In this document: positions 12,701-13,714 of the stretch, piece after piece | Position numbering within the stretch: the stretch's first letter is position 1 | How the letters are laid out: every line of letters begins with the position of its first letter | Assembly: GCF_030227225.1 (NCBI RefSeq) | Contig: NZ_JASPHQ010000014.1 | Coordinates: forward strand, 1-64,000 | Reading direction: 5' to 3' | Source: Corynebacterium rhinophilum | Lineage (GTDB): Bacteria; Actinomycetota; Actinomycetes; Mycobacteriales; Mycobacteriaceae | Length of the DNA stretch: 64,000 bases | Program-made: the position numbers and the translations under genes | Notes under the pieces: model-generated | What the model saw: only the letters and a program-made list of their open reading frames with translations | The model's database searches: none | Told to the model about the DNA's origin: nothing

Positions 12701-13714
12701 TTAGAAATCCCAGTCGGCATCGGAGGTCTCTACAGCTTTGCCGATGATATAAGAGGACCCCGAACCCGAAAAGAAATCGTGGTTTTCATCCGAACCTGGC
12801 GTGAGTGCCGCGAGGATTTTTGGGTTGACCTGACATTCCTCGTACGGGAAGAGGTTGGGATAGCCCAAATTCATCAAGGCTTTATTGGCGTTGTAGCGCA
12901 CGAACGTCGCGACATCATCCATAAGCCCGTACGGTTCATAGAGCTCGCCGGAATAGCGCATCTCCAGGTCATAGAGCTCGCGCACCAAGTCAAAGGTAAA
13001 TTCCCGCATGTCCTCGCGGCGAGCTTCCGTGGCGTGATCCAATCCCCGCTGGAACTTATATCCGGAGTAGTAGCCGTGGACCGCCTTATCCCGCAGGATG
13101 AGCCTGATCATGTCTGCCGTATTGGTCAGCTTTCCGTGCACGCTAAAGTGCAGCGGAAGATAGAAGCCGGCGTAAAGCAGCAAGGAGGACAAGAGGGTCG
13201 AGGCAACCTTGCGCTTTAGTGGGTCATCGCCATAGTAATGCACCATGACACTGGTCGCGCGCTGTTGCAGCACTGGGTTATCCACGGCCCACGCATAGGA
13301 TTTCTCAATCTCTTCGGTGCTGGCCAGGGTAGAAAAGATTGAGGAATAGCTCCGCGCGTGTACCGCCTGCATGAAGGCGATATTGGTATAAACGGCCTCC
13401 TCATGCTCAGTCCGGGCATCTTGAATCTGGCTGATTTCTCCCACGGTGGCCTGCACGGTATCCAGTAGCGTCAGGCCGGTAAAAACGCGAATGGTGAGAT
13501 CGCGTTCGGCTGGATCCATGCGCGACCAGTCATTGCGGTCATTGGAGAGCGGGACCTTTTCCGGCAACCAGAAATTCGAGGTCAGGCGGTTCCACACCTC
13601 CAGGTCCTTGTCATCCCAGATGCGATTCCAATTCACCGGGCGTAACGGGGTGGAAGCATCGTGGCGAAAATGCGGCGGGGTTTGGGATCGCTCAATGAGC
13701 TCTTGATATTTCAT
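12701..13714 (-). CDS. nrdF: Class Ie (metal-free, QSK-type) ribonucleotide reductase beta subunit
   Basis: This 337-residue protein is clearly an NrdF-type RNR small subunit, including the C-terminal R1-docking tail ending DADWDF. Aligned by eye to class Ib NrdF, Asp85, His119, His213 and radical Tyr123 (HARSY) are kept. Three metal-ligand glutamates are changed: Gln116 in [10 protein letters not shown], Ser176 in [14 protein letters not shown] and Lys210 in RDKAVHGYY. That Gln-Ser-Lys set defines the QSK variant of class Ie, which uses a tyrosine-derived DOPA radical without metal and needs NrdI. nrdI is the next gene upstream. No nrdE or nrdH is nearby, so it must use a large subunit encoded elsewhere. 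Confidence 0.92.

Follow-up and report, generated by a model that had tools for sequence, protein, structure and literature searches.

Why should a Corynebacterium genome with a canonical class Ib RNR operon carry a second NrdF, in which three metal-ligand glutamates are replaced? The gene lies in a stretch of 64,000 nucleotides (the window), part of an assembly of 2.47 Mb in 92 contigs with a completeness of 100. A reading of the window made from sequence alone had proposed that this NrdF allows deoxynucleotides to be made when iron and manganese are withheld, an idea that fits the locus as described here. The subunit, referred to as QSK after its Gln, Ser and Lys, is best understood as standing in for the class Ib subunit at low manganese, with the R1 in common.

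The QSK subunit and its R1

The nrdF gene occupies exactly positions 12701–13714 as an open reading frame of 337 aa with an ATG start and no internal stops, confirming the earlier call, to which the minus strand can now be added. The same sequence-only reading had Gln116, Ser176 and Lys210 in place of metal-ligand Glu residues, with Asp85, His119, His213 and Tyr123 retained, and each of these residues was found at its position, Lys210 within RDKAVHGYY. On the minus strand, by residue position and alignment, the codons of the first, second and third replaced Glu ligands are at 13367–13369 (Gln116), 13187–13189 (Ser176) and 13085–13087 (Lys210), and the expected DOPA site, Tyr123, is encoded at 13346–13348. 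Among solved proteins, the QSK structures 8rag/8rah from Gardnerella come first (E 4e-151), followed by Glu-bearing NrdFs; in the alignment the Q, S and K of the window protein stand opposite the Q, S and K of 8rag/8rah, and opposite Glu in 9l6o. The complete set of metal-ligand Glu residues that marks a class Ib (dimetal) NrdF is absent here by three.

Relatives divide in the same way. Among the best 80 of 262 confirmed loci from the genome collection, with the best NrdF piece read per locus, the seven sites are D-Q-H-Y-S-K-H in 60 and D-E-H-Y-E-E-H in 20, and this clean split, with no mixed combination, argues that the QSK residues are not chance. One of the 60 (L041) also holds a canonical copy. 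At two loci (L061 and L081, from Kocuria varians and Rothia terrae) the QSK nrdF was recovered as two tblastn pieces, and is perhaps frameshifted.

The 82 rows of a maximum-likelihood tree (midpoint-rooted, with bootstrap not fully settled and VPK rows absent) comprise 61 QSK and 21 canonical sequences, which each fall on one side of a 100/100 branch. The window NrdF lies among Corynebacterium sequences (C. macginleyi, KPL1814 and others), adjoining that of C. flavescens. As it groups at 100/100 with QSK proteins including that of Gardnerella, apart from class Ib, it is, by sequence, a further member of the already published class Ie (QSK). The assignment made earlier is thereby supported by residues, alignment to a solved QSK protein and tree placement alike. 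QSK NrdFs are common in the genus: the pattern of the Lys motif was found in 110/242 Corynebacterium genomes, and all 30 loci read in support of it had the full QSK. A class-wide genome sample gave the pattern in 2/197 genomes, one of them the window's own, which is too few for statistics.

The window genome encodes two NrdFs, the QSK protein and a canonical one on contig 8 (locus L003), 61% identical to it, which reads D-E-H-Y-E-E-H and is in an operon with nrdH, nrdI and nrdE. A single R1-family match, NrdE, was found in the genome, at this canonical locus and away from the QSK pair, and a search of the genome for NrdD gave no match. The canonical NrdF and its lone R1 rule out the QSK protein as the sole RNR of this genome, and make it an extra subunit. 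Since the genome's only R1 sits in the class Ib operon, the QSK nrdI-nrdF pair probably provides an alternative subunit that shares this R1. Two further observations concern the canonical locus: the gap between nrdE and nrdF contains a GntR/FadR-like ORF (named by eye) on the opposite strand (L003:7890-8576), and upstream of nrdH (L003:4780-4980) is a stretch resembling what we take to be the NrdR box consensus, none being seen by eye at the QSK nrdI.

Palindromes and a co-inherited reductase

Along the minus strand, leuS is followed by the gene of a DtxR-family regulator, then by nrdI and nrdF, and lastly by the gene of an FMN_red-family protein. The leucyl-tRNA synthetase gene leuS (15117–17987), the regulator's upstream neighbour, is outside the system. 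Directly upstream of the QSK nrdF is nrdI (13755–14243), encoding a flavodoxin-like activator of 162 aa (NCBIfam nrdI, 150.1 bits against a cutoff of 74.65; PF07972). Elsewhere in the window, at 8594-9577, is an ArsO-like flavin monooxygenase, which at 422.2 bits is just below the curated cutoff of 425.

Two palindromes recur upstream of QSK nrdI genes: type A, AACTACG-N6-CGTAGTT, and type B, AGTTCA-N6-TGAACT. The counts allow up to 2 mismatches and cover 190-nt regions that differ in their cores. Of 46 Corynebacterium nrdI regions, 9 have type A and 20 have type B (0.00 and 0.40, respectively, expected from shuffling), with at least one palindrome in 29 and neither in 17. Outside Corynebacterium, 4/37 nrdI regions have a palindrome and 33 have neither. 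A palindrome was found in 0/20 canonical nrdH regions, only one of which is from Corynebacterium, and in 4/24 regions (3 A, 1 B) upstream of a variant PEPCK gene found in related loci. Because the motifs were found by eye in the same sequences, these counts are a description and not an independent test.

Across 20 whole genomes, again at up to 2 mismatches, type A occurs at 10 places and a reversed control pattern at 10 also, which argues against type A marking a wider regulon. All three perfect copies and the one with a single mismatch are at nrdI or PEPCK loci; four places lie away from such loci, and the one read (L170) is intragenic by eye. The enrichment near nrdI and PEPCK genes stands apart from this genome-wide control.

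The two types divide according to the regulator. Of 31 Corynebacterium loci long enough to show the neighbours, those with an adjacent regulator favour type A (5 A, 0 B, 5 neither), and those lacking one favour type B (1 A, 13 B, 7 neither; p 0.0005 for A vs B). This count omits L117 and L143 as repeats of L010 and L011, leaves other near-identical species unmerged, and includes for L144 a site on the PEPCK side. When the regions were delimited differently and the repeats counted, the figures are 7 A, 0 B and 5 neither with the regulator, and 1 A, 10 B and 10 neither where there is none.

In the window itself, a block conserved in near relatives (14285–14325, minus strand) forms the putative nrdI operator region. 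Within it is a degenerate type A palindrome, AAGTACGTTAGATCTGTAGTT, at 14305-14285, that aligns with the C. flavescens site. A clean palindrome was sought at the window nrdI and not found, the only site there being this degenerate one, which falls short of the 2-mismatch rule. A near-copy of the window operator (L006) has 5 mismatches to type A and 6 to type B, and two loci with the same letters as the window (L007, L009) have 3 mismatches if a 5-nt spacer is allowed. At up to 2 mismatches, type A is absent from the whole genome that contains the window, and all that its mntA-like gene shows is a type B site with 3 mismatches.

Directly downstream of nrdF, at 12100–12666 on the minus strand, is the gene for an FMN_red-family NAD(P)H flavin/quinone reductase of 188 aa (PF03358). 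A start at 12666 is favoured by alignment with 10 homologues; an in-frame ATG at 12720 would give 206 aa. At E 1e-25 or better, 84 of 242 Corynebacterium genomes have a copy: 77/110 of those with QSK and 7/132 of the others (Fisher p 5e-28, kinship ignored). In 63 of the 84, the copy is on the same strand and at most 3 kb downstream of the QSK nrdF. In other genera, copies of at least 59% identity are present in 11/24 QSK genomes vs 0/10 genomes reached through canonical nrdF loci, these having been chosen by locus and not by genome-wide QSK status (p 0.014, kinship again ignored), and weaker copies (36-40%) occur in 4 of those 10.

This bears on whether the regulator and the reductase belong with the RNR genes at all, or are chance or general stress-gene neighbours unrelated to it. 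The reductase is not strictly tied to QSK, being absent from 33/110 QSK genomes and present in seven genomes without QSK, and the solved proteins closest to it are flavin, quinone or chromate reductases of a general kind (the NADPH-dependent FMN reductase 3u7r, the conserved hypothetical 1rtt, YieF 3svl and the chromate reductase 4hs4). It also occurs alone, three solo copies (L124, L126, L136) being near a homologue of the regulator with no nrdF in the fetched stretch, and another (L131:4226-6710) having as neighbours ORFs that by eye resemble superoxide dismutase and MsrA, and a type B palindrome with one mismatch. Against a chance association are the contrast between QSK and other Corynebacterium genomes and the recurrence of the gene beside QSK nrdF in other genera. 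The palindromes point the same way: type B is upstream of 7/14 solo reductase genes (of 17 such genes, 14 were fetched) vs 0/29 at QSK loci, where 24 of the reductase genes lie at most 1.5 kb downstream of nrdF. Its absence there is as expected if the nrd transcript is shared. Merely coincidental neighbours are hence unlikely, though they keep an appreciable share of the probability. For the reductase as a functional partner of the QSK pair, we propose a candidate role in recharging NrdI or reducing over-oxidised DOPA, and it would be the best candidate for such an accessory reductase.

Manganese, the regulator and a variant PEPCK

The regulator gene (14379–15113, minus strand) encodes a second MntR-type metalloregulator of the DtxR family, of 244 aa with an FeoA domain (PF01325, PF02742 and PF04023, all over cutoff). 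Its best PDB match is 5zr4/5zr6 (202 bits), presumably the Mycobacterium tuberculosis MntR (Rv2788), of which crystal structures are cited in the literature. It is called MntR-type rather than MntR, since its 141.6 bits fall below the cutoff of 350 for the NCBIfam MntR equivalog. In an alignment of the three DtxR-family proteins of the window genome, the positions that we take to be metal ligands Met10 and Cys102 of DtxR are Met and Cys in one paralogue, as in DtxR, and Asp at both in the second, which adjoins metal-ABC-transporter-like genes. The window regulator has Asp and Glu. It thus resembles 5zr4/5zr6, its best solved relative, in the acidic pair, and differs from MntR in its score and in not being the copy beside the transporter-like genes. 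Exchange of the two sulphur ligands of DtxR for acidic ones has been described, in the available part of a review, as favouring manganese (PMC9936198).

Instead of manganese limitation, the QSK pair might serve a shortage of iron or oxidative stress. Activation through NrdI draws on oxidants derived from O2, and both iron and manganese are reported to repress the class Ie genes of Streptococcus pyogenes, in the accessible portion of a review that also describes the conditions of class Ie use as not understood (PMC8463856). Countering this, the adjoining regulator has the acidic, Mn-type pair that the genome's own DtxR does not, and in the available text on C. diphtheriae, nrdI-nrdF2 is listed as MntR-regulated and DNA upstream of nrdI was not bound by DtxR in EMSA (PMC13001254; nrdF2 is known here by name, not by sequence). 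A role in iron limitation or oxidative stress is accordingly improbable, without being negligible. The reading as a low-manganese alternative also fits a published idea through the same metal repression in S. pyogenes, and the QSK pair would probably be induced at low manganese, either by the MntR-type regulator next to it or by the housekeeping MntR.

A second candidate for an exchange of manganese for no manganese, in central carbon metabolism, comes from related islands. Clustering of neighbours revealed that several QSK loci carry a gene for a GTP-PEPCK, oriented divergently to nrdI(E)F. Its product aligns with solved GTP-PEPCKs over residues 32-604 of 629, keeps the P-loop and passes the NCBIfam cutoff (two were tested). 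At two positions that are Lys and His in canonical PEPCKs, it carries Ile and Gln; together with a following Asp, these positions match rat K244, H264 and D311, which we take to be the manganese ligands. The island protein is hence like the GTP-dependent PEPCKs (5i67, 4r43 and others) in length and P-loop, and unlike them at two of the three presumed manganese ligands. A structure prediction from 6 sequences, with a mean pLDDT of 45.6, was too poor for use.

The I-Q-D combination was present in all 25 variant PEPCKs read (21 from Corynebacterium, 4 from other genera), and in 114 of 120 listed database homologues by regular expression. Among the remaining six, P0235, P0239 and P0240 are I-Q on inspection, P0219 fails to match at the Asp motif alone, in P0229 the Ile is replaced by Ser, and P0241 is the sixth outside the expression. 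At E 1e-175 or better, the variant occurs in 21/242 Corynebacterium genomes, 18 with QSK and 3 without (p 1e-4, kinship ignored), and in 7 of the 21 it is at most 5 kb from the QSK nrdF motif. Outside Corynebacterium the association is not significant (5/24 QSK genomes vs 0/10 others, p 0.29). The variant is also found in Aeromicrobium and Nocardioides, listed by occurrence irrespective of QSK. It is not in the window's genome, where the single PEPCK match is canonical. A search of the open-licence literature for a Mn-independent PEPCK, or for PEPCK with a class Ie RNR, found nothing pertinent.

Eight records (P0144, P0145, P0147, P0151, P0152, P0160, P0169 and P0179), from Trueperella, Pseudoglutamicibacter, Corynebacterium, Brevibacterium and Helcobacillus, are 99.5-99.8% identical, which suggests recent transfer of the variant PEPCK between families. 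At L138:777-15506, a QSK island holds nrdI-E-F, the variant PEPCK and the reductase, with transposase-like ORFs at 777-2081, 2152-2943 and 8165-9163 and a primase-like ORF at 13953-15506 (all named by eye). The island looks mobile; as for its being plasmid-borne, there was no 80%-coverage match in the plasmid collection, the best covering 14%, in the nrdE ORF. Leucobacter sp. 7(1) (G449, L026) has two variant PEPCKs and two reductases, in pairs ~4 kb apart on two contigs, perhaps two islands. At L145 and L146, an nrdE with 80% identity to the canonical nrdE of the window genome is on the PEPCK side, and the QSK nrdI-nrdF runs in the opposite direction.

From its gene content, the QSK locus reads as part of a manganese-sparing gene set. 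Chances appear about even that Actinomycetota have a mobile set of this kind, comprising a metal-free R2 with NrdI, a dedicated flavin/quinone reductase for recharging NrdI or repairing DOPA, a regulator of MntR type that has an operator of its own and, among certain relatives, a PEPCK that is Mn-independent through the loss of two of its three manganese ligands. If so, evolution would have freed two manganese enzymes, unrelated to each other, from metal or from manganese, and they would be carried and switched on together. The new suggestion lies in the company that QSK keeps, namely the regulator with candidate operators, the reductase, and in relatives the PEPCK without the presumed manganese ligands. 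Testable handles on the system come from the MntR-type regulator, through its candidate operator, and from the NAD(P)H flavin/quinone reductase that is inherited along with it. These neighbours fall outside the published neighbourhood analysis, which, as given in the available part of the source, covered only RNR genes at most 300 nt apart (PMC11846895).

Comparison with published class Ie systems

John et al. 2025 (PMC11846895) report, in the portions available, QSK R2 genes in the genomes of 266 species. For the Gardnerella QSK R2 the same portions describe only trace manganese and iron by TXRF, formation of DOPA upon co-expression with NrdI, and an activity that requires both DOPA and reduced NrdI (PMC11846895). 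By homology, the window NrdI would supply a superoxide-type oxidant that converts Tyr123 to DOPA and then to a DOPA radical, without iron or manganese. This radical would be handed from the QSK R2 to R1, probably the lone NrdE, encoded in the canonical class Ib operon, so that a manganese R2 may be exchanged for a metal-free one on a common R1. What is directly established is the sequence, the tree group, the gene order, one R1 and two NrdFs; the chemistry, the R1 sharing, the manganese control and the role of the reductase are inferred. The joint explanation, a class Ie NrdF with a NrdI-made DOPA radical, a shared NrdE, low-manganese induction and an accessory reductase, is on the whole likely.

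Two other accounts of the protein itself fare far worse. A degenerate or regulatory NrdF paralogue that forms no radical, with the canonical class Ib enzyme doing all the work, might be suspected from the nrdH, nrdI, nrdE, nrdF operon, beside which an extra copy may be dispensable in rich medium, and is very improbable given an uninterrupted frame of full length in which the Tyr, the Asp and the two His remain, an adjoining nrdI, identical residues at the seven sites in 60/60 QSK loci (among the best 80 of 262), an active Gardnerella homologue and, in the published parts seen, dozens of species that rely upon QSK alone (PMC11846895). A low-affinity or alternative-metal R2 that still binds, for example, one ion on Asp85, His119 and His213 would draw on the three of six canonical ligands that remain, and is equally remote in view of the DOPA-modified QSK homologue with its trace metals.

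The reading as a metal-free alternative subunit can be set beside three known systems. The class Ib Mn2 NrdFs, such as Corynebacterium ammoniagenes R2F and the second NrdF of the window genome, are alike in overall sequence and in having NrdI and NrdE as partners, and unlike it in that every Glu ligand is present and the metal site intact. The class Ie VPK R2s of Mesoplasma florum, Streptococcus pyogenes and Aerococcus urinae, as far as the available text describes them, share the replacement of all three Glu ligands, the third by Lys, and the NrdI-dependent DOPA radical; they differ in having Val and Pro for Gln and Ser and an nrdFIE order, and are mostly from Bacillota (PMC11846895).

Closest is the R2e-QSK of Gardnerella vaginalis (Bifidobacterium vaginale; 8rag/8rah), which has the same Q, S and K, the same retained D, H, H and Y, the same tree group and an nrdI in its operon, with an identity of about 66% between the window NrdF and the Gardnerella loci. 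In Gardnerella, however, the operon is described as nrdHIEF and QSK as the only class I RNR (PMC11846895), whereas the window genome has nrdI-nrdF only, plus a canonical NrdF and one R1 elsewhere. This arrangement has published counterparts: according to the accessible parts of the same study, 104 QSK gene stretches are nrdIF, virtually all genomes with an nrdE-less stretch carry nrdE elsewhere, and it was proposed that the same R1 proteins can work with a QSK R2 and with a dimanganese R2 (PMC11846895).
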